Below, piece after piece: positions 809 to 52,162 of a stretch of DNA of 64,000 nt. Source of the DNA: Trametes villosa (Eukaryota; Basidiomycota; Agaricomycetes; Polyporales; Polyporaceae); assembly GCA_002964805.2 (NCBI GenBank), contig PUDQ02000057.1, positions 682,001 to 746,000 on the forward strand, in the 5' to 3' direction. Numbering within the stretch: the first letter of the stretch is position 1; every line of letters starts with the position of its first letter. Position numbers and translations under genes: made by a program. The notes beneath the pieces are model-generated. The model was not told where the DNA came from and ran no database searches. It was given only the letters and a program-made list of their open reading frames with translations.

Positions 809-2167
809 ATGCGGCGTAGCGCTGTCAGGATGCGGCACGCCTCATTCATCCTTGTACTCGTTTGCGTTACCGCCAGCTGTGGTCTTCCGTCCAATCGCAC
901 AATCGACGATCAGAAGGGCGACAGCGTAACAGGGGCCGTGCCCACCTTCACACCCTTGGACAACTGGAACATCGGTCAAACATGCTTCATCTGCGCCGTT
1001 CATCCCGGCATCGTCGATCCCGGGCAGGCCTTCGGCGGGACATGGCACGACGCGTCCCATTACGGGACGGGCAACGTCAATATCACTGTGCAGATCGACT
1101 TCACGGGCACCGCTATTTATATGTACAACATTCTCGTCAATACCGTCAACACGACAAGCACCCTCACGCAGCTCAACTTCTACCTCGATGGCATCCAAGT
1201 GGGCACGTTCGAGCACAAGCCCGACGAGTCGTCACAGGTGATCTACAATGCGCTCGTATACAAGAACACAACGCTGCCCAACGCGCCGCATTCGCTTCAA
1301 GCAGTGCTCTCCACGGAGAGATCGGGGATAACCCTCTTCGACTACGCCATCTACACAGTGGAGGATGACACCGAAGTTCCCTCTCAGTCGTCGACATCTA
1401 CGTTGCCGTCATCCTCACAAGTGAGTCCCCGCATGCGCCGGCAAGCAAGGAGCTGACATGATTTTGACAGTCATTGCCCGCAGCTCACGATAATCGTCAC
1501 GGCTCGAGCGTCGCGGCTATAGCAGGCGGTGTCGTAGGCGGGATCGTCGCGTTCACCGCTGTCTTGCTAGCATCCCTTTTTCTATACCGCCGCCGTACTC
1601 AGAAACGGCGACGGTTGTCCTCGAGAGCCGGCCAATACTCAACTCCAGTCTGGAAGGGGAGAGGCAGTTCCGGCCTCGCCGCGAGTCCTTACACAGTCGC
1701 AGAAGCGGGGTCACGGCCGTACGTTCCATCCAGTAAGCTCGGTCTTATAGGGGACGATCGTGAGTGGCGCTTGCACTACTACCAGAGATGCCGCATTGTG
1801 GCTGACATAAGACTGGCTGGCAGAGCTGCGACTTCCCGCTACAGCTACCGTGCCCCCTCCGCCGGAAACGCTTCCAGCCAACACGCTGCGCGCCGCAGAC
1901 GATCCGAACGCCCGAATTTCCCCAATAGAGCGCTCAGCTCAGCTCGTGCAGCAGATCCAGGCTCTCCAGGCGCAGGTCGCTGAACTCTGCGCTGCGCGTG
2001 GCGCTTCTGCCGCTGGCAGCGCGGATCCCTCGTCGGATATGGAGCGAAGTCTGTCGGCGGTGCTCGCGGCGTTCCGGGGCGAGATGGCGGCGCTGCGCGC
2101 GGATCTCAGCGAGCAGCAGTATGCGATGACGCCGCCGCTTGAGTTGCCGCCGTCCTATGGAGGGTAG
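809..2167 (+). CDS. Receptor-like transmembrane protein, copy A (ectodomain, TM, coiled coil, PPxY)
   Basis: Exons 809-1420, 1471-1759 and 1824-2167 give 414 residues. Residues 1-25 are a signal peptide. NRTIDDQ (29-35) opens a ~170-residue ectodomain with GQTCFICAVHPGIVD and several N-x-S/T sites. Then come a short Ser/Thr stalk, a glycine-rich membrane helix (about 217-241), a basic stop-transfer patch (YRRR), a coiled coil (about 338-395) and a C-terminal PPSYGG. Both introns have GTGAGT donors, CTGAC branch sites and matching phase (0, then 1). A second acceptor at 1844 would drop 21 nt in frame. It is the first of five tandem plus-strand paralogues. PPxY is a known ligand for WW domains such as those of Rsp5/NEDD4 ligases; the rest of the function is unknown. 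With copies C and D it forms a short-stalk subgroup. Confidence 0.86.
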
Positions 2168-2819
2168 GCGTTCTGATGAAGGATAAAGGTGAGTCCGCGG
2201 TGTCCTCTGTGCGCGCATGGGAATGCTAAGTAATGCGGTATCTAGTAGTAGAACATGTCGAGCCTGCGCTATATGATGAATTGCATTCTCGCTCCTGTTG
2301 CAGAATCCGGGAGTTAACCTCCCACGCAGCCCATCCGGCGTCCACAGCTGACCAGATCCAGAGTCGGGGCCATGCTCGCGCGTGGACGATGTAAATGCGA
2401 CCTTTTTACACGACCTTCCATCCTTCGCGTTGCGCGCCGGGAATTGCCAGGTAAGCGAATCTCCAGATTCCATGTTCTTGCGTTTAATCATCCTTACACC
2501 AAATATGAGTAGGATCTCAAGTGCGCAGAGCATAGGGCCAGTAACCATAGAAGACCCCTCCAGCTCAGGTGTTCCTTTCCGTATTATGGCCTGAAACGTG
2601 TATGACGGTTCAGTCGAGCCGAGTCGGTAGCGGACCTCGGTATGAGGTTTATTATTGGCGATGGTGATGTCTAACAGTTGCTACCACACTTACCGGATAA
2701 CTGACACTGCGTTCAGCATGGTATCGTAGGCCAACTGTCGTGTCCGTCGTGTCTTGCGCCACCAACAGGCTACTAGCTCCGAGCACAGGGTTTAGTCCTA
2801 CCAGTCCACCAGTCCGGCA
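2168..2819. other. Intergenic between copies A and B
   Basis: This is the spacer between two tandem paralogues. I find no coding pattern or repeat. The AT-richer stretch around 2470-2520 may belong to the terminator of copy A, and the last 150 bases should be the promoter of copy B. Neither shows a motif I can name. Confidence 0.4.
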
Positions 2820-4312
2820 ATGCTCGCGCGCGCTGTCTTTCACCCGACATTGGCGAAGCTCCTCCCTTGGCTCCTTCGAGGCACTGTCGCTGCAGGTGCC
2901 CTAGTCAACCGCACCATCGATGATCAAGAGGGCGACAGCGTCACCGGCGCATTGCCGAAGTACCTTCCCGGGCCATGGAACGATGGGCAGACGTGCGCGA
3001 CGTGCCACCTTCACCCCGGGATCATCGACGCCAGCCAGGCCTTCGATGGGACGTGGAGCGACATGACTTACAGGGGCCTCGGCAGCCCCGACCAGGTGGT
3101 TCAAATGAACTTCACCGGGTCAGCTGTCTACGTCTACAACATCGTCGTCACCAGCATTGTACCCCTCACCGACACGCGCGCGAACCTTACATTCTACCTG
3201 GACGGCACGCTCGTTGGCGGTTTTTTCCAGGAACCGGTCAGCATCCCCGACGGCACGCCTCCGCAGGTCTCGTACAACTTCCTGGTCTACAGCAATGCCT
3301 CTCTACCTCCTGGCGATCACTTCCTCCAAATGGTGACGTCCGGCGTCAGACCAGCGAACGTGCTCTTTGACTACGTCGTATATACCGCCGAGGATGGAAC
3401 ACCGTCGCCTTTGCAGCCGTCCGGCTCGTGTACGTCTACGTCCACGCCTGCGTCTTTGCCTTCACCCCAGCCCCCTGCCCATCCATCATCCCTGACGGAC
3501 CCTCCCTCTTTGTCATCACTATCAGCGGGATCCTCCAGTCCAACAACAATCGCGTCGATATCTCCGTTGCAGTCGATACAGACACGCTCCGCTACCATGG
3601 GCTCCCCGTCGTCGGGAACAACGCTCCCGTTACAATCCCTGACCGTAACCCCCACACCCACCATCTCGGGGACCATACCGACTTCAGCATCACAACGTAA
3701 ACGAGCTATCAACCGCGCTGCTCTCGCGGGTGGTACTGCGGGTGGCGTCGGGCTGATCCTATTATCGTTGCTGGTCTTCGTCTTGGCTCGACGGCTTGGT
3801 GGGCGGCGACGGTGTCGAATGCGGACATGGCGTACGTCCATTTGCAACATCCCAGCACATCAGGCTCGGACTTCCCAGACGATTTCGCCGTATAATGTGA
3901 TTGTGGTGGAGCCTCCCAGCGGCGACCGAAAACCACTCCCCCTAGGCCAACACAGTACGTACGCGCACCTTCCCAGACCGTCTTGTTCGAAACTGCAGTC
4001 CTGACGAGGAGCTTAGGCGGGCCCGGGCTCCCACAAGCCGAGAACGCATCGCCAGCGCAGGATATATCTGGCGTGTTTAATCACAGCCCTCAGGCTCAGG
4101 ACGAGAGGATGGGCTATCTCATGAGGCAGATCGGGGCCTTGCAAGCGCATATGGACGTGCTGCCCGCTGCCCGAGATACCTCCGGTAGCAGTGCGGCTGT
4201 TGCAGCGTCGTCCGAAGCAGTCGAGCACAGCCTCGCGTCTATGCTCGCTGCATTGCGTGGCGTGGCGAGGTGTCGGCGTTACAGGCAGTGCTTGGCCAGC
4301 CGCACGGGGTAG
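2820..4312 (+). CDS. Receptor-like transmembrane protein, copy B, with a frameshifted C-terminus
   Basis: Exons 2820-3954 and 4017-4312 give 476 residues. A signal peptide (about 1-28) is followed by VNRTIDDQ, GQTCATCHLHPGIID and FDGTWSD, a long Ser/Thr/Pro stalk, a membrane helix (LAGGTAGGVGLILLSLLVFV) and an RRLGGRRRCR stop-transfer. The phase-1 intron before the coiled coil is shared by the whole family. The stalk is much longer than in A, C and D, and the first intron of those copies is absent, as in E, F and G. The coiled coil breaks at 4257-4266, where GTGGC is present twice in tandem. The shifted frame ends at 4312, while the ancestral frame stays readable to a stop at 4356 and contains GEVSALQ and PPAYRE. 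The tail with PPxY is therefore lost unless the duplication is an assembly error. Confidence 0.82.
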
Positions 4313-4356
4313 CACCGTGTTCGCCGGCGGAGGTTCCTCCTGCATATCGGGAATGA

Positions 4357-5342: not shown

Positions 5343-6582
5343 ATGCAACACCCTTTTCTGGCAGGCCCCTTCCTGTTGCTCTGTACCGTCACGTCCAGCC
5401 ATGCACTCCCCTCCAACCGCACGATCGATGACCAGAAAGGCGACAGCGCTACAGGTGCGATGCCCGTGTACACCGGCGGGTGGAACATCGGGCAGACGTG
5501 CTCCAAGTGCTCCGTCCACCCCGGCATTATCGACCCCGCTCAGGCGTTCGGCGGGACCTGGCACGACACGACCAACTATGGCGGGGGTCCTGACTCCGGT
5601 ATCAGCGTGCAAGTAGTCTTCGTGGGGACCGCGGTCTATATGTATAACATCCTTCCCAACACCGTGAACGGAGCAAATACACGCACACAGCTCTCCTTCT
5701 ACATCGACGGAGATCTAGTGGGAAACTTCACACACGAGCCCAACGAGACCACTGCGCAGGTGATCTACAACGCGTTGGTATACAAGAACGCGTCGCTGTC
5801 AAACACTCCGCACACTCTCCGGGCGGTTCCTCTCGGCACTGGCAACATTCTGTCCCTCTTCGACTATGTCATCTATACTGCGGAGGACGACGCTCAATCC
5901 ACTGGACCCTCTCCGTCACCAGCATCGGCCTTGCCATCCGCTGCGGTGAGTAATTCCTCGTCTTGTATGTTAATTCTCTTCAAGCGCTGACATATTCTTG
6001 GAAGCCGTCTTCAGAGGCAGCGTCCAGCCCCGCAAGTCAAGACCACCCCAACGCCACCACCACGGTCATTGTGGGCGGCGTTGTGGGCGGTGTAGTGGCG
6101 CTCATCGCAGCTCTGCTTCTGCTGTTTCTGTGGCACCGCTACCGATCTCGACGGCGTCGAAGGCCTTCGCAACGCGAAACGCCCCCTACCCCAGCGCACT
6201 CCGATCCGAGCAGCTGGGGTCCGGGCGCAAGCCCTTACGTTGTGCGAGCACGAGTAGGCCGCCTTTCGGACAAGCTGTCTCCCGGCGTGGAAACAAATGG
6301 TCAGTGAGCCCATAGCTACTGCTTGAACCGCCCATCTCTGCCAATGTGCTGACGGTTGTGAACCTGTCAGGAAGAGCCTATCCTGCAACAATAGCAAGCT
6401 CCGAGTTCTTCCCTCGCCCCGACAGCCGCATCTCCGTACCCTCTTTCATATACGATCCCAGCTCCCTTGCGTCACAAAGCGAACACCCCGACGCACGACT
6501 TGTACAGCACATCCAGGCTCTGCGGGCGCAAGTTTCGGAGCTCCGCGCTGCCCGCGAGGACGTCGGCTCTCCGCTCAGCTGA
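5343..6582 (+). CDS. Receptor-like transmembrane protein, copy C, truncated tail
   Basis: Exons 5343-5945, 6005-6299 and 6371-6582 give 369 residues. Signal peptide (about 1-21), SNRTIDDQKGDSATGA, GQTCSKCSVHPGIID, FGGTWHD and VYMYNIL place it with copies A and D. The membrane helix lies in exon 2 (VIVGGVVGGVVALIAALLLL) and is followed by a run of arginines. Both introns sit at the same positions and phases as in copy A. The third exon begins the coiled coil (VQHIQALRAQVSELRAAR) but stops early at 6582. The second half of the coil and the PPxY tail of its sisters are missing and I cannot find them within the next 150 bases. It is either a tail-less variant or a gene in early decay. Confidence 0.82.
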
Positions 6583-7327
6583 GCCTCAGGTCCTACTTCA
6601 GAGCCAACGGCTTCGGCGATAGTTCATGTTCATCCTCCGGACAGTTGATGTATTGATAACGGACGTGTTTACATCATGTACACGTTCTCGAAGAGATGGA
6701 TTAGAGCTAACATGAACACTCGATCATCATCATGTTGTAGCAGACGGCTAAGTACTATTACTACTTAGTATAGCAGTTTAGGGCCGGCTGGCCTGCGCGT
6801 ATGTTGCGTGCGTCGAGGCGCGCGGGGCTGCCTTATACTGAACTTCCAATCTTGAACGTACTCTCGTACAGCCACTACCGCACCCGACAATGCTCATGCA
6901 CCGCCTTGGGTCTGGAAATACGATTTCTAGACGATGTCAGGTCTTCCGGGCACAGTGGGTTACTTGCTAGAAAAGGCGGCCACTCTCCTACGTGAAGACA
7001 GCTTGTTCCACCATCCCTGAGCAGGGGTTGTCTAGCCCCAAATGTGAAGCTTTCCTCGGGCGTTCCGACTCTCGGGCATCTTGAGGGGACTGACTGGCTA
7101 CATCACGGATGACGAGGCTATACTGTCCGTGGCGGCAAGCCGGCAGATGAGTAGAAACCGTGGTCGACAGCTCACAAACTCAATCATCTCGTGCACGTAA
7201 GTATGCACTCCTCCTCCCCACCGACGCACACGTTCACGCCTCGGGCACCTCTCTTCGACCCCGACACTAATCGCAGTTGCAAGCACATCGAACTCGCTAT
7301 TCAGCCACTACGCGGCGTTCTAACAGG
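6583..7327. other. Intergenic between copies C and D
   Basis: No gene supported. A small perfect hairpin at 6748-6768 (7-bp arms, 7-nt loop, AT-rich) is the only structure I noticed; it lies 170 bases past the stop of copy C and may be part of its 3' region. The region before 7328 should contain the promoter of copy D. Confidence 0.4.
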
Positions 7328-8803
7328 ATGCACTGCGCCGTGGCCTTGCTGCTCTCGCTTTTTCTCTGGAGCCAGTTCGGCCGCAGCGCCCTTCAGAACC
7401 GCAGCATCGACGACCAGAGGGGCGACAACGTAACCGGCGAATTGCCGACATATCTCCCACTCAACGGGTGGCACATCGGCCAGACCTGCACTGGCTGCGG
7501 TATCCACCCTGGTATCGTCGACCCAGGCCAGGTGCACGACGGAACATGGAGCGACGTGACGTTCTATCCTGGCGGAACCAATATCAGTGTGCAGGTCAAC
7601 TTCACAGGCACAGCCGTCTACATGTACAACATCCTTGTCAACGCCGCGGGTACAGTGAACACCTTGACGCAGCTCGACTTCTACCTCGACGGAGATCAAG
7701 TCGGGACGTTCGTGCACAAGCCAGCCGCAGCCGGGTCACAGCCTCAAGTCATCTATAATGCGCTGGTTTATAACAACACAAACCTGCCTAATGCACCACA
7801 CTCGCTTCGGGCTGTTCTCTTCAACGATATCAAGAGCCTCTCCCTCTTCGACTATGTCATTTATACGTTCGACGATGACGACCCGCCCCCCTCTGATTCG
7901 GGGACGTCTTCGCTGTCCTTGCCTTCTGCGTCGGAATCATTATTGCCCTCAGGATCTACGCCGGTGAGTCTTTCGCCTTGGGTCAACACCAAACATATCA
8001 CTGAGTTGAAGACAGTCGTCGTCCGAAATATCTCCACTGCCGTTATCCTCCGGAGTGCGTCCTTCATTTTTTCTGGCCACCACTGATGGCTTACGTCGTT
8101 GTAGTCCTCGTCCGAATCCCAAGCCGCTCACTCGTCCACCAACATCGCGGCGATCGCAGGCGGCACTGTGGGTGGTGTCGTCGCGGTGATTGTGATTTTG
8201 CTCTCGATCTGCCTGCTATGCCGCCGACGTGTTGGTCGCAGGCCGCAATCGACTTCCCAACGCGGATCGCTACCACCTCGAGTGCACCCGGAGACACGCA
8301 GTGCGGGTGTCCTCGTGACCCCCTATTCTATCGCAGGAGTAGAGGCACAGCCGAACCGCCTCTCTGAGCCAAAGCACCGCCCAATGCCAAACGGTGAGTG
8401 GCAGTATCCTGTCCATCGGACATAGACTTCGCACTGCAGCTGACAAGCCGCCGCTCCTCCAGACCCGTTCTCTACTGTAACCATGGTCCACTCCCTCGAC
8501 TCGGAACGACCCACCAACTTGCGGGCACCTTCCAGCGCATACAGCGCTAGCGCTACCGGCGGCGTATCCTCGACTGAGCGCTCCACGTACCTCGCGCGAC
8601 AGATCGAGCTCCTGCAGGCGCAGGTCGCCGAGCTCCGTTCCACGCGCAGCGCACGCTCGGATAACGCGGAGGAGGCGGAACAGACTCTGTCTGCCTCGCT
8701 TGCCGCGCTCCGGGGCGAGATGGCAGCGTTGCGAGCGGACCTGGGCGAGACGCAGCATGTGGGCGCCGAGGCGCTCGAGCTGCCACCGTCGTATGGTGCG
8801 TGA
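7328..8803 (+). CDS. Receptor-like transmembrane protein, copy D
   Basis: Exons 7328-7963, 8016-8054, 8105-8393 and 8463-8803 give 434 residues. The ATG at 7328 is the first methionine in frame and gives a clean signal peptide (MHCAVALLLSLFLW). The ectodomain has NRSIDDQRGD, GQTCTGCGIHPGIVD, VYMYNILVN and LFDYVIYT. The stalk is Ser-rich and split by an extra 50-bp intron (8055-8104) that copies A and C lack. The membrane helix is IAGGTVGGVVAVIVILLSIC. The last exon carries a textbook coiled coil and ends ALELPPSYGA, so the PPxY tail is intact. All four exons join in phase with GTGAGT or GTGCGT donors. Confidence 0.87.
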
Positions 8804-9665: not shown

Positions 9666-11152
9666 ATGACGGTACTCGGATTCCTGTCCCCCTCGCTCCG
9701 AACCGCGGCGTCAATCACACTCCTCTGCCTCCTTCGAGGGACATTGGTCGCCGGTATCCTCGTCAACCGTACGATTGACGACCAGAAGGGCGACAGCATA
9801 ACCGGCGCGCTCCCCGGCTACGCTCCCGGTGCATGGCAGCAAGGACAATTATGCTCTGGGTGCAGTCTTCGCCCCGGAATCATCGACGCGAACCAGGCCT
9901 TCGACGGGACCTGGAGCGACGTGACCACCCCCGACCCCGGCGGCCAGGACAGCATCCTTCAAGTCCGCTTCACGGGATCTGCAGTCTATGTCTACAACAT
10001 CGTCGTCGACAGCATCGACCCCGCGACGGGTACGCCCCCGACGAATCTCTCGTTCTTTATGGACGACGAGCCTGCCGGCACGTTCTTCCGTGCGCCGACC
10101 GCGATCGACTCCCACTTCTCCGATCCGGACATCTCCTACAATGTGCTGGTATACGGGAACCCTTCCTTGCCGTATGGTCCGCATACCCTTCGGATGGTCG
10201 CACCCGGCGCAGAGCCGAACATCGTGCTCTTCGACTACGTCGTGTACACGACGGACGATGGTACCCAGCAGCCACCGCCTCCATCCTCACCTCAGCCATC
10301 CCTCAATCCATCTGTCCAGCATTCCTCAGCTATACCCCATTCCTCATCCCCGATATCGACGGACACGCATTCCCCGACGACAGCCCCGACGCCAACTTCA
10401 AATAACCGCTCTTCATCCTCTTCGGGCGTTGCAGAAACGGCCTCGCCCTCACAATCGTCGGGCACGGATCCACCAACACCCTCGCTTTCCACGTCACTCC
10501 TTCGAACAGCCTCTACCCCGCCAGCCTCCAGCCATTCCACTGCTTCCGTCTCAGCTGCTTTGTCTACTTCCACAGCGCAACCGACTCCGCCCTCTCATAC
10601 TGCCGCTATCGTGGGAGGCACTGTTGGTGGTGCAGCGCTCATCCTCCTCGCACTCGTCGCCTTCCTTTTTCTCCGCCGGTCACACACGCACCGGGCCCAA
10701 AGGGCCGCCTCGCCACACCAACTCCTAGGGGATACGCTTAGGGGCTCAGGCAAGCTCGCGTTTTCGCGATCGGAGGGTGCGCGACAAATTTCCTCCGTCC
10801 TACTTATGAAGGTGCTGACAAGGTCTTTACAGCATCATTACCCTCGGCATCGCCCACAACCCGGCTCCCACCGACCCCCGAGCATCCGGCCGATGCATCA
10901 GATGTCTTCGCGAACGCTCAGAACGAGAGGTTTGCACACCTCGCACAGCAAATCCGCTCTCTGCAGGCCCAGTTCGACGAGCTCCGCGACCTACGAAGTC
11001 TCTCCGGTGGAAGCGCAAGTACCGCAGAGCCGTCTGAGGCTGAAGAACGCATGGCGTCGATGCTCGCGACACTTCGCAACGAGATGTCCGCGTTGCGGGA
11101 ACAGCTCGGGGAGCAGCTCTTCCAGGAGGCGCCTCCTTCGTATCAAGGATAG
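9666..11152 (+). CDS. Receptor-like transmembrane protein, copy E
   Basis: Exons 9666-10776 and 10833-11152 give 476 residues. Signal peptide (about 1-30), then LVNRTIDDQKGDSITGA, FDGTWSDVT, VYVYNIVV and VLFDYVVYTTDDGT. This long-stalk subgroup (B, E, F, G) has a ~120-residue Ser/Thr/Pro stalk, fit for heavy O-glycosylation, before the membrane helix (IVGGTVGGAALILLALVAFL). The usual CxxCxxHPG reads CSGCSLRPG here, so the histidine is replaced by arginine. The 56-bp phase-1 intron precedes a long coiled coil (LAQQIRSLQAQFDELRDL) and the tail ends APPSYQG. Without splicing, translation would run in another frame to 11228 and lose the coil and PPxY. Confidence 0.88.
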
Positions 11153-12278: not shown

Positions 12279-12305
12279 TACCTAACCCCTATACTCTCTG
12301 GCACT

Positions 12306-30280: not shown

Positions 30281-30398
30281 GAGCCGGCAGGGGGAAATGA
30301 GAGCGTACTGCGACGTCCCCCGCCATCCGCCGTCTGCCGTCCTCATTCTCTACACAACTCCCGATCCACGCCGTCACGGTCGTACTGCCTACTGAGAT

Positions 30399-38045: not shown

Positions 38046-41000
38046 CCGCCCTGCGCAGGAATCGAGCGCGTCGGGGCGGGTTCGGAATCGAAGGCGAGGC
38101 GGGGACGGCCGTCTCGCGGCTCGAACGAGTCGCCGCGGTCGCCGGCGGTGTGTACGGTGCGCGGCGTCGGCGCCGCTGTGTGCCACGTACTACAGTGTGT
38201 AAGTATACGCACCGCACACGCCGCCGCTGGGGCCGGACGCGTTGGCGGACGACGCCGGACCGCGCGCCGACGTGTTCTGGCGCCGTTTGATCGCGGTCGA
38301 CCGAGCCGAGCCGTGCGCTCCCCTAGAGGGGTGCGACAGGGGCGGGAGGACGGACGTACGAACGCGGACGCGCCGCCGGGCTTCTGCAGAACAAGGTGAG
38401 CGGGGGTCTTCATCGAGGCGCACGGCGGCTCACTATACGATAGCTTCCCGGTCGCGTCGCGAGTGGAGTGGACGGGAAGGGCGACGGAACGGCCAGCTGG
38501 GCACGGGAGGACGGCAGGGGAAACGACTGCCCTCCACCCCGCCCGTCGCATGCTTTATGCGCCCCCGCAAACGCGCGGACCACCGCTCCCCTGTCCGCAT
38601 CTCGCGCTCTCCTCGGACTCCCTCGCCCAGGCTCTCCGTCTCCGCCGCGAAACGACACGCCGGGTGTGTGTCATGCGCACGCGCCCGTGCATCGCGCCTG
38701 CGCGCTGAACTTCCGGGCTCGAAGCGACGCCGCACAGCCCGGGTGTCGAATTGCGAAGCTGTGCGGCGCCCCGGACCCACTCCTCCTAGCCGCCGCGTCT
38801 CGTTTCTGGAGTCTCGGGGCTCGCGCTGTACGCCGCGCGCCGCCGCTTTCGTCAGCCCCCGACGGGAGGGCCTGCCGCCTCCGAGCGTCCGCGCACCCAC
38901 CAAGGGGCGACACTCGGCATCCGCATCCGACTCGAGACAGTCGGCGGATTTGCGTCAAGCACACACCGTCGTGCGACCCTGCGCCGCCGCTGCGTCCCCG
39001 CTCGCGTCTGGCTGGGGTGCGGGTGAGGTAAGTTCCGTCCCGCTGTCAGACGGCCATCGACTCGGGCGGTCTGTGTGCCGAGCGGGGACCAGAGGCGGAT
39101 GTGGCGGGGGTTGCAGCAGGCGCATCGTCGCCCCGTCGAGCCGTCTGCGAGGCTCACCGTGTATCGTAGCAGGAGTTTGTGTATGCCAATACGCACCTCG
39201 CGTCGAGCGAGTCGAGCGTTCGCATTGTGTGAATGCCGGCGGGTATTCGTACAGCACGGAGAACAGACCGGGCGCCCCCTACTCAGCGAGACGGACAGCA
39301 GCTCGTCGCCTGCACGGAACCGCGGGCGACGGGAGGAGGCGAGTGGTCGCCAGTAGTGGATTTTCGCCGCGGCATACCCCTCGCGCCTGCGCTCTCCGTG
39401 TGCCCGCCCGAGAAGAAGCCAGCCCGCAATGAAGCCCCACAGTCGAGGTGCGAACACCGCTCGCTTTCGAGTGCTGCACCCCTCGCCATCCGCCTCCCGC
39501 CGCCTGTCAACCGCGGGGCCCTCATACCGGTACGCCAAGTCCTCCCGTCCGCACGAAAGCGCACACTAACCGTTCGGGCCGTCATTCAGCGAGCATCGCC
39601 CGCCGGACGGCGGCGCAGATACAGCTGGCACGCGAGGGACTGACTCCCCGCCGCCTGGTTCTCTCGGGCGTTGCTTCGTCTGGTGGATGTCCGCCACGCC
39701 GAGCACCGGGTGCATCCCGCTTTCGCGGAGATGTGTATTCGCTCGCCGCCCCACACCCTGCTCCGAGTCGTGGGTTCGTCGGTAAAGCAGCCGTCTGACG
39801 CGAAGATGCGCGCCCGGTCGAGGCCCGTCATGTATTCTCGTACAGTACCCGCCGTCAATGCTCGTTTCATGTCCATGCGGCCTCTTCGAATCGCGGTGCC
39901 CGGTTTCCGGGCCTGCGTCGTGCTCGTTGCTCGGGAACGGGTGCAGAACACGGAGAGCGACCCGAATGGCCTGCACTGTGCACCTGAGCACGACAGCTTG
40001 TCTGCACCAGGGCCGCCGGCGTGCTAATACAGGATACACTCCCAAGTGGACCTGCACACAACAAGCGTGCTCGGACCTCGCTCAGAGCTCGCGCGAGGAC
40101 ATGGACGGGCGGTTTACACAATGGGCAAACGGCCGCACCACGACTGCAACAACTCCCACAGCGTGGTGCGGAACACGGGATGCACGAAGCAACACCGCGG
40201 ACACCTTCGCCCACGCGCCACTACTAACGCAGTGGACCCAGCGGCGGTCGCCGCGCCCGCATCCCATACCGATCGACACCTGCCGGGATGGATGAGCGCG
40301 AACAGGGACACTAAGCCGTAGGTACACCGCTCTTTCCTGTCTCCGAGCCTCCGTATCATTTCTCAATCTTTCTGTCGTTTGCGCGATACTGCGCGTCCGG
40401 ACTCTCAGGCCGCATCTACTCCCCATTAACAAATCTGCGCGTTCTCCGGCGCCGCACCGTGAATGATACAAATCGACGAAACACTTCGCATACCTCAGAC
40501 CGCGCACTGCACATCACCGTTCGCGTGGGGTTCTCCCGGCACCCGACGTCTTCGGTTGTGCGCGAAGTCGTGGACATGAAAGGTACTGATTCCGGATCCC
40601 TGCCCCAACAACGGCATGCAAGGAAGTGGCACGCTCCCCGCCGGAATCTGAGCCGCTGGGTACGTTCCCTGCGTCGCGGCAGCCCCTAGTAGCCCCCTCG
40701 AATGGCCTGAAGAAGTGCATTAGCATCCGCCGACATCGGGAAACTCACTGTGCATGCTCCCCAAGCGTGAGCTTCGGGGTCGCGGCGCGGTGTTCAGCCT
40801 GAAGCGAATCTGCGCGAGCCGAACTCACCTGGTCGACGCACCGAGGCCTCCGTGCTTTGGCAATTCCAGACCGTAATCGGTGCGCTGCGACGCGAAGACC
40901 CCGTAGCCTCGATCAAACATATCCGGCCTTGCCCCATCTTCGCCGCCCGACGTCATGATATTTTTGCTGCCGGTTCAGACGGAGCACCGCCCTCGTCCTC

Positions 41001-41415
41001 CACGGTCGTAGCCAGTTGAGATCGGCCCTGTTCGTGTGCACCATTGCACGGCGTGTTCTCCTGCAAGTGTGTATAGTAGTACTATGCCTGTGGAATTCGC
41101 CCTATATTTACTACTCACTCCGTGCGCGCGAGAGGCCACCGCAGATGAGACTGAAGGAAAGCGCGAAGCGCACCGCGCACTCGGAGGCGCTGCTTGCGCT
41201 TGTAGGTCCGCGTGGCCATTGCTGCTGCTCGGTGACCCTGTAGACTATTGCGTGAGGAGCACAGCGCATGCGTACGGGCTTCGCGGCGCGGTCCGCTTGA
41301 GTCGGTCGCGGGACGCGAGTGAGGTTGGGCTGGCGCCGGATATCGTATGCGCGGCGCTCGGTGTTCCGTGTCCGCGTCTTAGTCCACTGCGGGGAGGTTA
41401 TGTGTATGAGGCGGG

Positions 41416-41422
41416 ATATAAA
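41416..41422 (+). promoter_or_regulatory. TATA box of the 250-residue gene, unit 2
   Basis: ATATAAA, 118 bases before the ATG at 41540 and in the same sequence context as its unit 1 counterpart. Confidence 0.55.
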
Positions 41423-41539
41423 GAGCCAGCGAGGGAAAGGAGAGCGTACCGCTTGAACGCCATCCCCCGCCGTCCGCCGTCCATCCTCCTCATTGGCTGC
41501 ACGACTCCCGATCCACGCCGTCGTACTGCCCACTGAGCT

Positions 41540-42345
41540 ATGCCGAGGACGGTCAAAGCCTCCCGCGTGCACGCCAACCCGACAGCGGCCGCCGCTCCCC
41601 GGACCGCCGCGTCGAAGCGTCGAAGCAGGCGGACCAAGTTGCGGACGGAGGCGCGAGACCTGATCGATGGCAAGTTCGGTAAGCTCGCGCGCATTCCCCG
41701 CAGAAGTCCGCTATACTTACCATTTGCGAAGGCGGGGTCACTGGCGACCCTTACGCCGGCCTGTGGTACACCATCGAGGACTACGCCGAGACCTGCGTGA
41801 TCTTCTACGGCTTCAAAGTCAAAGGCTGGCCCGACCGGATTCCGTTTCGGAACCTGAGCAGCATCGGCGGCTGCGACGTCCTCGAGGACCTCCTGGCGCT
41901 CTGGAAGTCGGACGAGATCAAGTTCGTCCCTGCGACGGACCTCGACAAGCTCAACGCCGCGCTCGACCCCACGCTCGTCGCCCCCGGCAAGAACTTCGTC
42001 CACCGGAAGCAGTCCGGCGGGCGGAACGACATCGGCCGGTCGCGCTACCGGTGGGTGACGAAGCCCGACGGCGGACCTCTGTGGCGGCCAAAGGACGGGC
42101 CGAAGAGCGACAAATTTGTTCGCGACTCGGACGATGAGGACGAGGCGCGACCGCTCAGGCTGCAGCCCTTGCCGTTGGCGTTTCCGCTCGCGGCTGGAGC
42201 TCTCGGCGCGTGCTCGTCTGGCGGCCCTTCAGGGAGCGGCGCGGAGGTGACCGAGGACGAGATAAGCGAATTCTCATCGGATGACGGGGCGGCGGGCTCG
42301 GAGATCGAGACGGTGGCGGGTTGGAGCAGTGAGCGCGAGTTGTGA
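41540..42345 (+). CDS. Unrecognised 250-residue protein, copy in unit 2
   Basis: Exons 41540-41678 and 41732-42345 give 250 residues with the same intron phase and exon lengths (139 and 614 nt) as the copy at 30399. Changes between the copies sit mostly in the basic N-terminus and acidic C-terminus or are silent; the central FYGFKVKGWPDRIPFRNLSS region differs by one conservative residue. Keeping an open frame of identical length in two copies, while neighbouring DNA collects indels, suggests the protein is or was recently under selection. Role unknown. Confidence 0.8.
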
Positions 42346-43320
42346 CTGCACTGCAGGCGACGTTGGTGTTTCCCGGAGAGACTGCTTAGTTTTTGGTAGT
42401 ATAGACACCGTATAATGCGATTCAGGCCGCGCTGCGACGACTCCGAGGGTATCGCCAGGTGGAGGTCGGTGCAGAAGTCAGTGCAGGGTCAAGCCGGCGC
42501 GTTGGCGCTTGTGAACCACACCGCATTCCGTATTTGGGATGTAAGCGCTGAACTGGCTGCAGGCTCGCCGGGCGCGGCGGCGGCTATTTCAACTCGCTTG
42601 ACCTCCACCACTCCAGACCGGTGCGCGGCGATTTCATCATACGCGGGCGCGCATCGAAGCGAGTGATCAGAGGATCAGCGTGAGCGGCGAGGGCGGTAGC
42701 CTGGTACTATGCGGGCTACTAGCTACCTGAAAGATTCAAGTCTCTGCAATATATCTGGGCTTCACTCACCTGCATTAGAAGACAATATGCTTGGCCAGAC
42801 GTGCAGAGAAAGGACGGTTGGACCATGCAGGCATTCTGCTTGTCCCAGCCATCCTTGTCCTGGATGCCTGGCCCTGTCCGATGGAGGGCGTGAGCGTGCG
42901 AGCACAGCGGACGTGAGCGGAGTGATGCGGGCAGAGAAGACTCTGCCGATTGTGAGATGTGAGAGCAGGCAGAGGGGACAGACCAATCAGGGTGCACCCA
43001 TTAACACTCGAGACCAGCTCAGATTAACTCAGGCTATGCAAGAAGTGATCAAAGGCGACAGGAAGCCGGAGGACCCTGGACGGGGAGAGCTAGGCGAGTT
43101 CGCCGCTCTCCCCAGAGATACAGAAATATATTCATGGCAGAAGCGGAACTGTCACCTCTCCGACACGCTCACAGGTGCGGTCCAGGTCTTCCGCTCGCCG
43201 GGATTCCCACCATCTCCCTCCCCGCCTGCAGCAACGTCCTCCAGCATGATCTTCTCATCGCCTGCACAGTCCCTTCCCCCTTCCTTCACGAGGCTTCCGA
43301 GCCTGCGCGCACACTGCACA
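42346..43320. other. Between the 250-residue gene and the WD40 relic, unit 2
   Basis: Counterpart of 31205-32180. An open frame at 42709-43332 aligns with that of unit 1 but suggests no known domain. No call. Confidence 0.3.
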
Positions 43321-45260
43321 ACTCGATGGTAAGTCTCTTGCTATAATGTGCAGTAGCTCAACTAATCAACATTGGTGCAGACGGACGTCGAGGACACCAG
43401 CGGTAGACACAACAAGAAGCACATCGCCGCCGGTGGCCGTCAGCACAGCTGCGAGAGGAGCCAGAACACGGACAGCTACTACACGCATCGCCCGTCCGCC
43501 CGCCCACTCGATCCGGCCGCCAAGGAATCCCGCAGCACACGCCACGAAGATCCCCTCTGAGGCCCGAGGGCGGCTGTGAACGCCCCGCGAGCTAGGACGC
43601 CGTGGCGGGCGAGGACACACCGAGGACGGAGGCGGGAGTGGATACGGCAACAAGAGACCATAGGTACAAAGTTCCTAACATGCTAGCATCGTTCGCCCGC
43701 ACTGACCTAGCCCGCAGATGCCTCGAAGGCCGGCGGCGGTCGCGCACATGCACGCACACGAGGGCCACGTCAACAGCTTGCGCGTGCGCGAAAGACCGGG
43801 ACGGACACGGCGGCAATGGCGCTCCGGCGAGCTGCGAGGTCGCGAGGTTGAAGGTGGAGACGGTAAGTACGTAGTTCGCGAGTCCCTTGTCTTCGAGATC
43901 GCACACTGACGGAATTAGTCGACGCGTGGCTGGCGAGTGGCCACCGTCGCATGCATGGGCGAGCAGGACACCGGCGGCCGGCGTCGTATAAGACTCAGGC
44001 CGCCGCGAGCGCGGCTGTGGACTCGTCGCAACAGGTGGCGCCACAGCGAGCGACCGCACGGCAGCGATCCGTGAATCCGCGAGGACGATGGCTGCGGCGG
44101 AGGCGGAAGACGGTCAGTAGTTCCTCCGGACCTCCTCCCGCTGAATGCATCGTTCGTGCACTGACCCAATCGACGGAGGCGCAGGCGGACGGCGGCCATC
44201 GCGCGCCACGACGGGCAGTTCGGAGATACGACGGTCGGCGACCCGAGGCGTACAACATACCGGATACGGCGGAGGGTGCAGCGCCGCGCGCAGACGCAGG
44301 CACGGATGGCGGACGGCAGGTCGGCGACGTGCTGCGACGAGTGGTAAGTATCCTACCAAGTACGATATTTGTGTACTAACCGATGATGCAGATATTCAGT
44401 GGCCGGCGGCCGCCACGCGCGCGTGCACGGAACGCCGAAGGCTTGCGCCAGGCCGAGCCTCGCAGAGAGCGCGTTCCCGGGCGCTCGCGCGTGAGCGGCC
44501 CGCAGCGGGCGGCGAGTTCTTGGGGAGTTCACGGGCGAGTCGGCATTAGCAGAAATTCGCAGTAAGTACTGTTGTTAGCGGTAGTGTTCGTGTACTGACC
44601 ACGTACGCAGACGTGCCGGTGGCCAGCGGCCGCCCTGCCGAGTGCGAGATGTACCGCCGGCCTGCTGTTCGCGCGAGCGGGCTGGCCGAGCGGCGCGCGC
44701 GAACAGCAGTCCGGAGACGCGACGGTCGGCGGCTGGGTGGTATACAACATACCGAATGGCGCGCGGCGGAGGATGCGACACCGCGCATAGACGCTGGCGC
44801 GGGCGGCGAAGAGCTGCGATTGGTGGTCAGTACTTATCAGGCTGCATCATTCGTGTACCAACCGACGATGCAGATCTCGAGTGGCCGGTGGCCGCCACTT
44901 GCGCGTGCGTGCACGGGTCGTCGGAGGCTGGCGCAAGGCACAGAGCGTCGCAGAGCGTGTCCCCGGGCGCTCGCGGGATCCGGAGCTGTGCGTGGCGTGC
45001 AGCGAATTCACGGCGAGTTTGCGAGGGAGTTGGTGTCGACGGAGATCTGCGGTAAGTACATCTGCTAGCCGTAATGTTGACGATCCTGTACTGAGCCAAT
45101 TCGCAGATGGGCAGGTGGCCAGCGGCCGCTCTGCCGGGTGCGAGATACGCCGCCGGCCTACGAGAGCGCGGGCGAACGAGCCGGACGGGCGGCTTGCTTG
45201 TGGGAGAGAGCCTACAGCGTGCGTTGCGGTGCTGACATCGCCACACGCGTAGTTCAGCTG
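43320..45260 (+). pseudogene. Decayed WD40-repeat gene, unit 2
   Basis: Second copy of the relic at 32180, with the same chain of short introns (43864-43918, 44344-44391 and others). It keeps the clearest WD40 signature of either copy: HEGHVNS at 43755-43775, followed in shifted frames by remnants of the SGS, DRTVR and W-D parts of a blade just before a GTAAGT donor. It also keeps an exon start near 43380 that a deletion of about 50 bases removed in unit 1. The stop before the donor at about 44562 is shared with unit 1, so decay had begun before the duplication. Confidence 0.55.
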
Positions 45261-45743
45261 TGGGGACAGTACTTGCTAGCGAGAGCCTGAGGAGCGCGCC
45301 GGAAGTCCCGGAGGCTGCATCTGGTGTCCGAGATGGGCTGATCGCGCCAGAGGAAAGTTTGAGAGTGCGCGTGTAGCAGAGTTCGAGAGTGCGAGTGTAG
45401 CAGAGTTGAGCAGTGTAGCATTCGTTCGGGCGGGCGGAGCAGAGGACGCGACGGGCGAGGACATGGCGGCGAGAGACGAGAAGCAATCCGTAAGCGCCCG
45501 CGCGTGCGAACACTGTCTCCTGCCACACAACGACAGCTACTACACCCCCGTCTCCCCCTGTCTCCTGCAACATGCCCGGAGTCTCACAAAGTCAACGGCC
45601 ACTTTTCGTCTGCGCCAAGTAAATATATTGCGCGTCTATGTACACCCGCCCGACTCGCCGCCCGCCGCCCGCCGCCCGCCGAGATGCCCCCGCGCCGCCA
45701 CCGCTCCTACGTTGTCGTACCTTCAGATCCTCGCAGGACTTAC

Positions 45744-46780
45744 GGAATATGGTGATGAACGCGACGGCGCCGTCGCGCACGAGGGTGTTCAGGAGCGTCG
45801 TGTCCGAGAACCCGTCCTTCGCGCCCCGGAGGATGCCGTACATCATGAGGCTGAATAGGAATGCCTCATACACGATCGAAGCGGTGCTACGCGCAGGGAG
45901 ACATCGCGTGAGACCGAGCATTATGTTGTAGAAACCTGCTGTCACTACTCACCTGTAGAGCACCATCTCCGTTGGCAGATCCGCGGCTCTACAGTCCCAC
46001 CCGGTCCGGACCTTGTTGATGCTCAAGCCCAAGCTGACGATCATGATCGCGAGCTGGACCGCGAGCCCCAGCAGCATGATGCGCAGGACCTTCGGCTGGG
46101 TTGCGTATACCGCATATACTGCGCACATGGCGTCAGGCCGGCAACATGAGGGGAAGCAGAGCGGAAATGAACGCACTTCGCAGGATGATGATCACTTCCA
46201 CGGCGGCCTCGACCAGAAAAGTGGACATGACTTGGAAGATGAGCCACGGTACGCAGGGGACGGCGACGCGGACATTCTGTATGCTGGACAAGCAGGGGAA
46301 GGGCTGTCAAAACTAGGCCGTGCACTAGAGGGTACCCGCGGTGCACATACGTCAGGGATACCAGGGAGTAGTATCGAGCGAAAAGGTACAGTGATTTCGG
46401 CAGCGTCCACTCGGATCTGTCATCAAGTGCCAATCAGGTACACATTCGAACCGACAGGGTTGCATTGCACGCACGGCCAGATTAGCTTGACCTTCAGGCG
46501 GATCGGTGATTTAGACTCTTCGTGAAAGCTGTGATATCGCATGCACGCACCTCTTCGTCCATCGTCGTCAGGATATCCCACGCCAACACCGCGAGTGCCG
46601 CAACTAGCCAGATTTCAGGGTAGCGTGAGCAGCCGACTCCGGACGGTGACCGGGCGGGAACGCACCAGAACTCCTCGCTGCGCCCTGCGCTTGCGATAGC
46701 GCTGCGAAAATCCGCTCCGCATCGGGCCCCAAGATTTGGTCGAGTGTCTGCGTGCCGCTGAGGTGGCCGCCTGGATCCAT
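45744..46780 (-). pseudogene. DUF6533 gene copy 3, lacking exons 8-10
   Basis: Minus-strand exons 46780-46666, 46603-46551, 46491-46475, 46416-46336, 46283-46177, 46118-45953 and 45886-45744 have exactly the same lengths as exons 1-7 of the complete copy (115, 53, 17, 81, 107, 166 and 143 nt) and open frames. Homology ends at the same exon 7 donor as in copy 2. It lies in the third, partial unit of the duplication. It may express a truncated protein; I treat it as a pseudogene because the last helices are missing. Confidence 0.75.
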
Positions 46781-47252
46781 AGGAGGCGAAGCGAGGCTTG
46801 CGGCGGTGGTCGAGGTGGGATCGCAGAATCAGCGGGACAGCACGTTTCGGGGCATCACCACAGGACGAGCGAGGAGATAGCGACTCGGAGGACGTCTATG
46901 TTTGCGCGCAAAAGCGACCGAGGGGGGCCATGCTCGAGGGTGAACACAACGCCTCATGACCATGTCTCGGCGCAAGTGCCCATTTTGAAGATGCTGTGTC
47001 TTCCAGCGCAGCGCTCGCGCGGAGCTTCCGCACTCCGGTCGGCGGTGATTGTTCTGATCCTGCATGCTGTAGCCGGGTTTCGTGAGAGTCGCGAAACCAG
47101 TACGAGACACCAGAATATATGGATGTGGTACTATGGTCGAGCACAGAGGAGACAAACAAGTAGTGCGAGATGGAATGAAGCAGAGACGCGCGCACACACT
47201 CGAGCGCCCTCGAGCGCCTCAAAAGGGTTGAACGTCACTTCATCCCACCACC
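45744..47252. repeat. Tandem segmental duplication, partial unit 3 (about 1.5 kb)
   Basis: The segment repeats the first 1.5 kb of units 1 and 2 (DUF6533 exons 7-1 and upstream DNA). Similarity ends near 47252, just after the shared stretch TTCATCCCACCA. It has more small indels than the other copies, for example around 46783 and 46880. Confidence 0.88.
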
Positions 47253-47502: not shown

Positions 47503-48932
47503 CTATCCTCGATACGAAGGGGGCGCCTCCGGGAAGAGCTGCTCCCCAAGCTGCTCCCGCAACGCGGACACCTCGTTGCGGAGCGCCGCGAGCATGGACG
47601 CCATGCGTTCCTTGACCTCAGACAGCTCTACTGCGCCCGCAATACCGCCGGAGTCACAGGCTCGCCCATCGCGAAGTTCGTCGAGTTGGGCCTGCAGTGA
47701 TCGGATTTGCTGTGCCAGGGAAGGAAGCCTCTTTCTCTGCGCGTTCACCATGTCGTCTGGTGCATCGGGCGAATCCTCGGGAGTCGACGAGAGCTGATTG
47801 GAGGACGAGGCGTAGGGTAGCGATGCTGTCGCGCCCTTGTGAGAACCTTACTGTGGAGAACGAAGAGAGATGATCGCGTACCCTGTGACCGCGAAAGCGT
47901 GAGCTTACGTGCAATGCTCAGCTTGGTCTCCCCCAGGAGTCGGTGTGGTGAGGCGGCCCTCTTGGCCCGATGTGTGTAGGATCGGCAGAGAAAAAGGAAG
48001 GCGAGTAGTGCGAGTAGAATGAGCCCTGCGCCGCCGACAGTACCTCCCACGATAGCGACGGTATGAGATGGCGAAGTCGGCGATGTGGATAGCGAGGTTG
48101 TTGGCGGACTTGCGCGTGACGACTGTAAGGGCCAGGCCGTCTCTGCAAGGCCCGAAGACGGTGAAGGGGGATTATTCGAAGTCGGGCTCGGCGCTGTCGT
48201 CGCAGCATGCGTGTCCGCCGATGTCGGGGACGAGGATTGGGGTATCGCCGAGGGATGCTGAGCAGATGGATTGAGGGAGTGCTGAGGTGAGGATGGAAGT
48301 GCCGCCTGAGAGGAATTCGCCGAAGATGGCTGCTGGGTACCGTCCTCCGTCGTGTACACGATGTAGTCGAAGAGCACAATAGACGGCGCATCCGCACCGG
48401 CCGCAACCACCTGGAGGGAATGCTGTCCGTGCGGCAAAGAGGCGTTACCATACACCAGCAAGCCGTACGAGATATTCGGCGTCGCGCCTGAGGGTAGAGC
48501 GCTCGGCGCGTGTTGAAACGTGCCGACGAGCTCGTCGTCAATGTGGAACGCGAGGATCGTGGGGGGCGTCCCTGCCGTGGGATCGACGGCGAGCACAAGG
48601 ATGTTGAAGACATAGACGGCCGACCCCGTGAACCCGATCTCCACGACGTTGTCCGGGTCGCCGGGCCTCAATGTAGTGTCGCTCCAGGTCCCGTCGAATG
48701 TTTGGCTCGGATCGATAACGCCGGGATGAAACTTGCACCCAGTACACGTCTGTCCTTCTTGCCATGCACCAGGCGCGTAAGTTGCGTGCGCGCCGGTCAC
48801 GCTGTCTCCGTTCTGGTCGTCGATGGTACGGTTCACGAGAATGCCAGCGACCGCTGCCCCTCGAAGGAGCAAGAGCAGGACCACCGACACCGTAGAGTGA
48901 AGCAAAGCCTGTAGGGATCCGAGCACGGTCAT
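47503..48932 (-). CDS. Receptor-like transmembrane protein, copy F
   Basis: Minus-strand exons 48932-47882 and 47825-47503 give 457 residues. I chose the ATG at 48932 over the one at 49040 because it gives a proper signal peptide (MTVLGSLQALLHSTVSVVLL) and is the start conserved in copy G. The ectodomain has LVNRTIDDQNGDSVTGA, GQTCTGCKFHPGVID and FDGTWSDTT; a Ser/Thr/Pro stalk leads to the helix IVGGTVGGAGLILLALLAFL. The 56-bp phase-1 intron is at the family position. The tail forms a coiled coil (LAQQIRSLQAQLDELRDG) and ends APPSYRG. It is closest to copy G, with which it shares promoter sequence, so the two arose by a local duplication of about 3.2 kb. Confidence 0.87.
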
Positions 48933-49589
48933 CTTGCCGCTCGGCTCGCCGGTAGGTGACAGGAGAAGGGAGCGCGAAGGACTGTGGGGTGGGCTGGAGT
49001 CAGTGGTTGGCTTGTTATCAGGGTTGGGATAGGTATTCATCCCTCGGGTGCCTGCGACGCCATCTGCCTTTCTAAGTTTTCCTAATTTCAGTCATTGCAT
49101 TCTTGATATGATACATATGAAAAATTGCGCACCTCAAGCCCTCACTATCACCTAGGGTCGTCTGGGCAACGCCTGCCCCTCAGGTTAACCCTAGTGTGCC
49201 GAACTCAACCTCGACCATAGTGGTGTTCAGTGGTTGCGGCTATGACCCCTGTGCCCACGACACTCGGGTTTCCGTGACGGCGTTTGACTGGGTAACATTG
49301 TACAAAATGAGGCCGCCCGCAGAGCGGTCCCTTCTACGATGATATCAGATGGTTGCCCTGAGTATACTTGTACCTTCATGCGAGCGGACGGATCCTTACT
49401 GTAAATTTGTCGCAAGATGAGCGCAACTACCGGACGGATTGCTGAAGGACTGACCACTATTTAAGCCGGCGGATCGCTCACCGGCGGACAGTCTTCGGGG
49501 ATGATAGGGTGAGAGCCGCGATGGCGAAGGGGAGTAACATACTCCGGCCCTCGACATTCTCAGACGTCGATGATGGCAGCCCGAGCGGC
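48933..49589 (-). promoter_or_regulatory. Promoter region of copy F, duplicated upstream of copy G
   Basis: Sequence from about 48933 to 49545 recurs upstream of copy G (52163-52810). Two blocks are almost unchanged: GGTAACATTGTACAAAA at 49291 and GATGATATCAGAT at 49338. They lie about 359 and 406 bases before the start codon, against 361 and 412 in copy G. No other gene is seen here. Confidence 0.5.
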
Positions 49590-49838
49590 GCCGCCACCGC
49601 ATACTCACCCAGGTTTGCCTACAGCGCAGCCATCTCGCCCCAAAACGCAGCGAGCACGGCGAGCAGGGTGGACAGGCTCCGTTCCTCCCGACGAGCTATC
49701 CGAGTTCGCGCCTCGCTTGGCGCGGATCTCGTCGACCTGCGCTTGCAGACGTTAGATCTGCTGTGCCAGGTGAGCGGAGTGCTCGGTTGGGGACGCGGCG
49801 GCGACGGGCTCGTACGCAGCAACGGGTCCCCCATGTAG
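49590..49838 (-). pseudogene. Relic of the coiled-coil exon of another receptor-like copy
   Basis: On the minus strand the sequence reads ERSLSTLLAVLAAFWGEMAAL, one residue per codon, and after an in-frame TAG continues ANLGEYAVAAPLGLPSS. This matches LAALRGEMAALRADLGE followed by LELPPSY in copies A and D. A preceding stretch resembles the start of the coil. No ectodomain, helix or PPxY remains. It lies between copies F and G in their orientation, so it is what is left of a third member of the minus-strand group. Confidence 0.65.
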
Positions 49839-50676
49839 TGAAAGCGACCGACTCGTCGTGGTGGAGAAGAGGATAAAGCCGTGGGAAAATGTATACACAG
49901 GCGTGCCGGACTATGTACGAGCTCCCGCCGCAGACTAGTACTCAGACTCTCACAACACCCCAGTTAGAAATGGGTCCGTCAATCTCCGGAAGTATACGGC
50001 ACGCTATGCAGTTAGCGGAGCCGCCACGCGCCGTACTATGCCAATATCCGCGAGCGTCTAGTTTTCTCCGCCTTTCTCTGCACGAATGTAATGTACCTCC
50101 CACATGCGCCCCCTGCACGGCCATTTTGGCGTGCCATACAGCCCTCCGTAATGTATGTAGTGTTCGGAATGAGATGTGCACTGCACGTGCGGACGCGCAC
50201 ACGTCGGTGTGCAGCCAGCACTTTCCTTTTGCTTCCACCGACTCGGAGTGTGTGGAATGAAGCAGAGACGCGCGCTCACACTCAGGTGCCCCGGAAAGTC
50301 ACCTCATCCTGCCACCCAAGCCGCCCGAAGAACTTGACCATCTAACGGCCGCTGCACTATCATTTAACCAGGCCTTTCTACTCAAGTACTCATCTAGGCA
50401 GCCATGTCCCGTTTTAACCGCAGAAAATGACGCAAGGGCCGAGTCCCTTCCCGAGAAAGCACAATGCAAGCCCCATAGCCAAACGGGTTTACAGGCGCAT
50501 TGCCGAAGAACCTCGGCGGGGATAACATAGCAGCCAGAGCTTGTGTAGCTTGAGAGCACCTACTGTGGAGAAGGGCCGGTACCTGGAGATGCAACTGAGT
50601 CAGTTTAGATTGCACCCAACAACCCCTCGCGCGGACGGTAGTAGACTACGGAGCATCGAAACATACACCTACAGTA
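49839..50676. other. Intergenic between relic and copy G
   Basis: No gene. At about 50250-50320 a short stretch (TGGAATGAAGCAGAGACGCG and flanks) matches the upstream DNA of DUF6533 copy 3 near 47165-47250, so a fragment of the segmental duplication may have landed here. Confidence 0.4.
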
Positions 50677-52162
50677 CTATCCTCGATATAAAGGCGGTGG
50701 CTCCAGTGGCGTGAGGATATGCCCACCGAGCTCTTCTCGCAGCGCAGACATCTCGTTTCGCAGCGCGGCGAGCACGGACGACAGGTTTTGCTCCGCCTCG
50801 GACGGCTCCGCGGTACCTGATGCTTCATCGCCATGGGCATTTCGCACATCGCGAAGCTCGTCCACCTGGGCCTGCAGTGATCGGATGTGTCGCCCGAGGG
50901 AGGCAAACCTTTCGTTCTCAGTGCTTGCAGCACCGTGCGGCACATCGGACGGATCGTCTGGAGCCTTCGACGGGAGCTGGGCAGGAGGTGAAGCGGAGGA
51001 TGATTGTGATGCTATTGAACGCTTGTGAGCACCCCACAAAAACGAGGGGATAAAATTGCGCACCCTCTGACGGCGAAACCGCGAGCTTGCGTAGGCTTCG
51101 GGGCTTCTTTCTTAAGAATCGATGGGATGGGGCAACCTTGCGGGCCAGATGTGTATGGGATCGTCGGATCAGAACGAACACGACCAGCGCGAGGAAGATG
51201 AGCCCTGCCCCGCCGACAGTACCGCCCACGATAGCCGCGGCATGAGACGGATGAGTCTGTTGCGCGGTTGGGGGTTGCGAAGCAGTTGTGACGGGAGAGG
51301 CGAGAGGCCTCGAAGTCGAAGCAACGGGGGCTGCAGAAAGGAAGGACGTCTCCGAGGGTTGTGCGGGTGGGGCCGTTCCTGTAAGGCTCGTTGAAGACGA
51401 GAAAGAGGAATGTGACAGAGTCAACGCCGACATTGTCGTCGGAGAGTGCATGCCCGTCGATGGGGCCTGGGGTCTTGCCGAAAGACGCTGGGTAGACAGG
51501 TTGAGGGACGGTTGAAATGAGGAGGAAGATGTGGCCTGGGAGGGCTCGGCCGAGGACGACTCCTGGGTATCGTCTTCCGTCGTGTACACAATGTAGTCAA
51601 AGAGCACGATAGACGGCGCATCTTGCCCTGGCGCGACCATCTGGAGGGAATGCTGTCCATGCGGCAAAGAGGCATTGCCGTACACTAGCACCCCGTACAA
51701 AATATGCGGCTCCGCGCCCGAGTGGAGTGCGAGCGGTACATGGCGGAACGCGCCGACGAGCTCGTTGTTGATGTAGAACTCGAGGATCGTGGGGGGTGTC
51801 CCTGCCGCGGGATCATTGGCGTCCACGATGATGTTGTAGACATAGACGGCGGTCCCCGTGAAGCCGACCTCGACGCCGTTGTCCGGGTTGCCGGGCTTCA
51901 GGGTGGTGTCGCTCCATGTCCCGTCGAAAGTTTGGCTCGGATCGATAATACCGGGATGGAAATTACACCCAGTACACGTTTGTCCTTCTTGCCATGCACC
52001 GGGAGCGTAAGTCGCGTGCACGCCGGTTATGCTGTCACCGTTCTGGTCGTCGATTGTGCGATTGACGAGGATGCCGGAGACTGCAACCCCTCGGAGGAGC
52101 AAGAGAATGGCAGCTGACGCTGTAGAGTGAAGCAAGGCCTGTTGGGATCCAAGGGCGGTCAT
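50677..52162 (-). CDS. Receptor-like transmembrane protein, copy G
   Basis: Minus-strand exons 52162-51064 and 51011-50677 give 477 residues. Signal peptide (about 1-30), LVNRTIDDQNGDSITGV, GQTCTGCNFHPGIID, FDGTWSDTTLKPG, FTGTAVYVYNIIV and IVLFDYIVYTTEDD. The Ser/Thr stalk is longer than in copy F. The membrane helix is IVGGTVGGAGLIFLALVVFV and the family intron (52 bp) is in place. The coiled coil (SLGRHIRSLQAQVDELRDV) leads to a C-terminal PPPLYRG, which still satisfies PPxY. All landmarks of a working protein are present. Confidence 0.87.

Follow-up and report, generated by a model that had tools for sequence, protein, structure and literature searches.

The PPxY motif is a ligand for WW domains such as those of Rsp5, and a cytosolic PY motif allows a membrane protein to recruit a ubiquitin ligase of the NEDD4/Rsp5 group. 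Wall-stress sensors of the WSC/Mid2 type have a signal peptide, an S/T-rich stalk, one helix, and a short tail, and a genome encodes only a few of the known sensors of this sort. The yeast proteins Sna3, Bsd2, and Tre1/2 have, to our knowledge, no secreted domain of the type described below and are not receptor-like. They are membrane proteins with a cytosolic PY motif; the PPAY in the C-terminal cytoplasmic part of Sna3 is required for Rsp5 binding and endosomal sorting, and the three WW domains of yeast Rsp5 are all of group I, the PPxY-binding kind (PMC2171029, in the sections consulted). Comm, PRRG4, and Rcr1/2 form a group of short proteins that cross the membrane once, dock NEDD4/Rsp5 through cytosolic PPxY or LPxY motifs, and alter the surface levels of other proteins (PMC5578492, likewise in the sections consulted). 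The present analysis covers a 64,000-bp stretch of the Trametes villosa genome (the window; positions 682001-746000 of contig C56 in a 46.7-Mb assembly of 140 contigs, C-numbers being contig labels), in which positions 809-52162 hold seven genes of a receptor-like family, five of them ending in an in-frame PPxY.

The seven ectodomain genes were located by six-frame scans, with A to E on the + strand and F and G on the - strand. Gene models were spliced by hand from the DNA alone using GT-AG and branch-like sites; an automatic splice search introduced too many introns and imposed a route to every stop, including the PPAY of gene B, and was discarded in favor of the hand models. The family features are as follows.

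809..2167, + strand: gene A, full receptor-like protein of 407 aa (hand splice model, exons 809-1420, 1471-1759, and 1845-2167; 1823 is an alternative to 1844 for the second acceptor)
893..1357, + strand: ectodomain of gene A, from NRTIDDQ to FDYAIYT, a CBM35-like beta-sandwich
2147..2167, + strand: C-terminal PPSYGG and stop of gene A
2820..4356, + strand: gene B, with ectodomain, stalk, helix, and first coil open and the frame shifted ahead of the second coil
5343..6653, + strand: gene C, with ectodomain, short stalk, and helix open, the coil out of phase, and the PPxY lost
7328..8803, + strand: gene D, 434 aa, ending in PPSYGA (exons 7328-7963, 8016-8054, 8105-8393, and 8463-8803)
9666..11152, + strand: gene E, 476 aa, with a long S/T/P stalk, ending in PPSYQG (exons 9666-10776 and 10833-11152)
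47503..48932, - strand: gene G, 457 aa, ending in PPSYRG, a recombinant of F-like and E-like parts (exons 48932-47882 and 47825-47503)
48339..48459, - strand: approximate recombination junction in gene G at the end of the ectodomain (best split near 48399; the span is our own margin)
49568..49820, - strand: relic, a coiled-coil tail fragment with stops, with no ectodomain or helix seen adjoining and no PPxY
50677..52162, - strand: gene F, 477 aa, ending in PPLYRG (exons 52162-51064 and 51011-50677)

Genes A, D, E, F, and G each have an open frame that starts at ATG and includes a PPSY or PPLY at the C-terminus, with the parts in the order signal peptide, ectodomain, S/T/P-rich stalk, GG-rich helix, basic juxtamembrane segment, coil, and PPxY. 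An S/T-rich stalk stands between head and helix in all seven genes, with S, T, and P making up 47-61% of it. A preliminary description of this DNA had reported seven genes and two relics sharing this order, the NRTIDDQ opening, and a terminal PPxY. That observation is partly confirmed and is good after correction for genes B and C and for the relic count: the seven genes stand, but one relic was found rather than two, and the mature part starts with NRTIDDQ in six genes but with NRSIDDQ in D. Gene B has a 5-bp tandem duplication (an extra GTGGC) immediately ahead of its second coil. The resulting frameshift, real unless the assembly is in error, puts PPAYRE (4336-4356) out of frame with the coil that B itself encodes, and the in-frame product ends without PPxY. 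The coil exon of gene C stops early, and the PPxY was not reached by the splice phases tried.

Homologues were gathered by whole-protein, alignment (A1), and ectodomain-only searches, which reach relatives having short exact words in common, to give 119 proteins (P0001-P0119). A helix and a tail of >60 aa were predicted in 103 of these, and PPxY lies within the last 30 residues in 70 (78 when LPxY is counted) against 0.7 expected by shuffling, in a set that includes a few non-members and whose first query was the whole protein with its tail. The ectodomain-only search gives a cleaner set of 91 proteins, from which nine without helix or tail were dropped; PPxY is near the C-terminus in 57/82 and PPxY or LPxY in 63/82, with 0.56 expected by shuffling. 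Neither motif is present in the other 19, some of which look like fusions or truncated gene models. The alignment search returned 12 matches, 7 of them new, and four of its proteins (two from Fusarium and two unnamed, P0029-P0032) were excluded as members, being without the ectodomain motif. The named matches span about 40 genera of mushroom-forming fungi, counted by names, besides the two Fusarium proteins without the ectodomain; the nearest to the window genes are from Trametes, and all named members found are Agaricomycetes, of the orders Polyporales, Agaricales, and Hymenochaetales. Most database entries are named "hypothetical" or "uncharacterized protein."

Within the T. villosa genome, 35 ectodomain matches were grouped by us into at least 33 loci. 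A PPxY lies within about 20 residues of a stop in 26 of the 33, on the same strand and, where measured, 1.0-1.5 kb past the ectodomain, a count made mostly without a splice model. The seven loci without it are B, C, C22:82833, C22:92117, C83:25560, C83:15467, and C10:53522. The terminal PPxY, clean in five copies of the window, is thus the rule in most relatives found, as the proposal in the preliminary description called for. Three loci, C83:25560 (L016), C22:82833 (L012), and C22:92117 (L027), keep ectodomain, helix, and coil and have lost the C-terminal PPxY, and they offer natural controls for its function. A prokaryotic scan with one short pattern gave as its sole matches three gene copies with apparent introns (L046-L048) on a single 24.6-kb contig, NZ_FKII01000081.1, labelled Candidatus Ichthyocystis sparus; a bacterial origin was rejected, and the copies most likely stem from fungal DNA contaminating a bacterial assembly.

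The ectodomain, of 155-162 residues, was modelled as a beta-sandwich with a predicted local distance difference test (pLDDT) score of 92, and it has the fold of the CBM35 superfamily (CBM, carbohydrate-binding module) in a structure comparison covering the families listed among the matches. Structure prediction thus places the fold that the preliminary description had left to be assigned. Pfam scans of 3 and 10 proteins gave no CBM profile and, in the larger set, one CE2_N match (E 0.17), and a scan of 81 members gave no family for the head among the best 25 of 68 families listed; within this coverage the head has a recognized fold but no recognized sequence family. It differs from CBM35 modules in its sequence (9-14% identity in the matches compared) and in standing on a membrane receptor frame, not an enzyme. 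With the ligand-binding domains of Eph receptors it shares the fold alone, the sequence being unrelated and no kinase being seen in the family. The modelled CBM-like fold fits the sensing of an extracellular ligand, and a glycan is a possible ligand, at somewhat less than even odds.

The nearest source of glycan is the cell wall, and this bears on an alternative in which the proteins are wall-integrity sensors or wall anchors of the WSC/Mid2 type, the stalk and CBM-like head holding or probing the wall and the PPxY being the sensor's own turnover signal. The S/T/P-rich stalks, 34-119 residues long, suit such a role, and 6/81 members match Pfam Mid2 weakly at E <= 0.1 (best E 0.0095), with some database entries named "Mid2 domain-containing." However, these weak matches are of the membrane-helix kind, as are those to ErbB, EphA2, and syndecan, and no WSC profile is among the best 25 of the 68 families listed. 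The family also has another head, a PPxY tail, and 33 loci in one genome, where known sensors number only a few. We regard the wall-sensor role as unlikely.

Positive-inside topology is predicted for 93/94 homologues and for all seven window genes, and a single membrane helix is also present in the structural model. One full-length model has the PPSY beyond the last helix, in its low-confidence end. The tail is accordingly predicted to be cytosolic and unburied, neither hidden nor outside the cell, and the topology and domain order described for this DNA at the outset are very likely right. Against solved structures, a profile search returned helix and coil matches of a generic kind among the best 60 of 181. 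Of 77 tails, 40 contain another short motif on the cytosolic side, [VIATEDSN][TSEDN]P[FY], where shuffling would give 7.4. It usually follows the helix by about 10-50 residues, and it resembles endocytic adaptor motifs.

A ligase of the NEDD4/Rsp5 type is encoded in the same genome on contig C10, with three WW domains and a HECT domain found by profile search and a C2-like segment recognized by eye. The tail PPxY probably docks the WW domains of Rsp5. The PPxY could instead serve another WW protein or be a trafficking signal read by a factor other than Rsp5. WW domains were matched at five places outside the Rsp5-type gene, and most of the Agaricales members listed have an extended motif, approximately WAxGL[ST][DN]xPPPGY, a sign that docking may involve more surface than a plain PY motif would; yet the group I character of the yeast Rsp5 WW domains and the need for PPAY in Sna3 (PMC2171029, sections consulted) argue for Rsp5, and a different reader seems improbable. 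The activity of Rcr1 in chitin deposition does not require Rsp5 (PMC5578492, sections consulted), and therefore a PY motif alone is no proof that a ligase is needed for function.

Taken with the head, the topology, and the tail, these results lead us to read the family as type I single-pass, lectin-like receptors or cargo adaptors for the Rsp5/NEDD4 ubiquitin ligase, with a probability of about 0.5. The proteins may sense something extracellular and control what stays at the cell surface, so that the receptor-like sensing with ligase recruitment suggested earlier is partly supported. Under this receptor-or-adaptor reading, the signal peptide would export a compact CBM-type beta-sandwich, which a disordered, glycosylation-prone stalk would space from the membrane, and a single helix with a GG-rich outer half would span the bilayer. 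The cytosolic tail would consist of a disordered linker, two helices that probably oligomerize as a coiled coil, and a PPxY left free at the C-terminus and able to dock the WW domains of Rsp5. We infer that binding of a wall-associated or extracellular ligand might cluster the receptor or hold it with a partner, and that Rsp5 might then ubiquitinate receptor or partner, leading to signalling or to endocytosis and ubiquitin-dependent vacuolar sorting.

A narrower form makes the proteins cargo adaptors only, the ectodomain binding a partner membrane protein in place of an outside ligand and the protein bringing Rsp5 to that partner. Known short single-pass PY proteins, Comm, PRRG4, and Rcr1/2, work in this way (PMC5578492), as do yeast Bsd2 and Tre1/2 (PMC2171029; sections consulted in both cases). 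Lysine-poor tails would be expected if the protein itself is not a substrate, and in 77 homologue tails lysine makes up a small share of the lysine and arginine together (K/(K+R) 0.11-0.16 versus 0.42 outside). This argument of a "lysine desert" evading self-ubiquitination is weakened, however, by the at least one lysine kept beyond the juxtamembrane part in 76/77 tails and by two other frames of the same genome that also favor arginine (K/(K+R) 0.22 and 0.31). An expansion to 33 loci with so elaborate a head also exceeds the needs of a generic adaptor, and a role as adaptors alone is rather doubtful.

By working, the receptor-or-adaptor family resembles the Comm/PRRG/Rcr kind, being small, with one membrane helix; by descent it is placed in none of these. 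Its head is a CBM-like beta-sandwich, not a Gla domain or a short stretch, and it has a coil ahead of the near-terminal PPxY and is expanded in gene clusters. The RCR profile (PF12273) gave no significant match, with 3/81 members at E <= 0.1 (best 0.021); in the T. villosa genome it matched nowhere, as did the control, so that this result alone is uninformative. Membership in PRRG was rejected on the modelled head and the missing Gla domain, and the Mid2 matches are weak. The preliminary description had known of no system of this form. Single-pass PY-motif membrane proteins have been described (PMC5578492, sections consulted), but neither a paper on this family nor one on its combination of ectodomain, coil, and terminal PPxY was found among the papers listed in searches of the open literature aimed at it, subscription papers being outside that coverage.

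Most family loci lie on C56, C22, C83, and C10, many of them only a few kilobases apart. In ten pairs of window genes, nonsynonymous divergence (dN) is below synonymous divergence (dS) in the ectodomain and in the coil-PPxY part, as under constraint, with many dS values near saturation, and stalk and linker are the least similar parts in most pairs. Gene G is a recombinant of an F-like head and an E-like tail. Its upstream DNA and most of its ectodomain are 76-89% identical to F and 65-79% to E, with F nearer in 11/11 windows of comparison; beyond that stretch, identity is 65-88% to E and 49-77% to F, with E nearer in 14/17 windows, two ties, and one against. The maximum chi-square for the split was 121.7, a value reached in 0/1000 permutations. 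Because the junction sits at the end of the ectodomain, recombination at this border between domains can join a head to a different tail. A wider speculation, which we hold to be credible but unlikely as a whole, is that Agaricomycetes have a diversified surface-recognition repertoire of cluster-expanded lectin-like heads on a constant Rsp5-recruiting tail, recombined between paralogues as in G, by which outside cues or non-self glycans would lead to ubiquitin-dependent removal or signalling; if true, fungi would have in it an equivalent of pattern-recognition receptors.

A survey found fungi to be without leucine-rich repeat pattern-recognition receptors and suggested that they may have novel classes instead (PMC2939053, abstract), and the family is a concrete, testable candidate for such a class. 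It is large and unstudied, with about 40 genera, 33 loci in one genome, and a head for which no Pfam family was found. If the tail docks Rsp5, basidiomycetes are equipped with many ligase adaptors that resemble receptors and turn their heads to the outside. Coprinopsis cinerea has a member (P0073), and a test there would be simple, since the head is compact, the motif is C-terminal, and a single ligase is involved. "Galactose-binding domain-like proteins" are among the genes induced by wood contact in two Armillaria species (PMC7827401, sections consulted); they are possible members of the family and a lead only.

Between the two gene clusters of the window lies a direct repeat (23406-36077 and 34544-47250), with pieces 87-96% identical and the longest measuring 8,891 bp at 94.7%. 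None of the three long frames tested within the repeat matched a Pfam family, and no tRNA was detected when the window was scanned for them. Ordinary genes also lie between the clusters, with frames matching HSP70 (16072-16953, - strand) and phospholipid methyltransferase (20510-21286, + strand).
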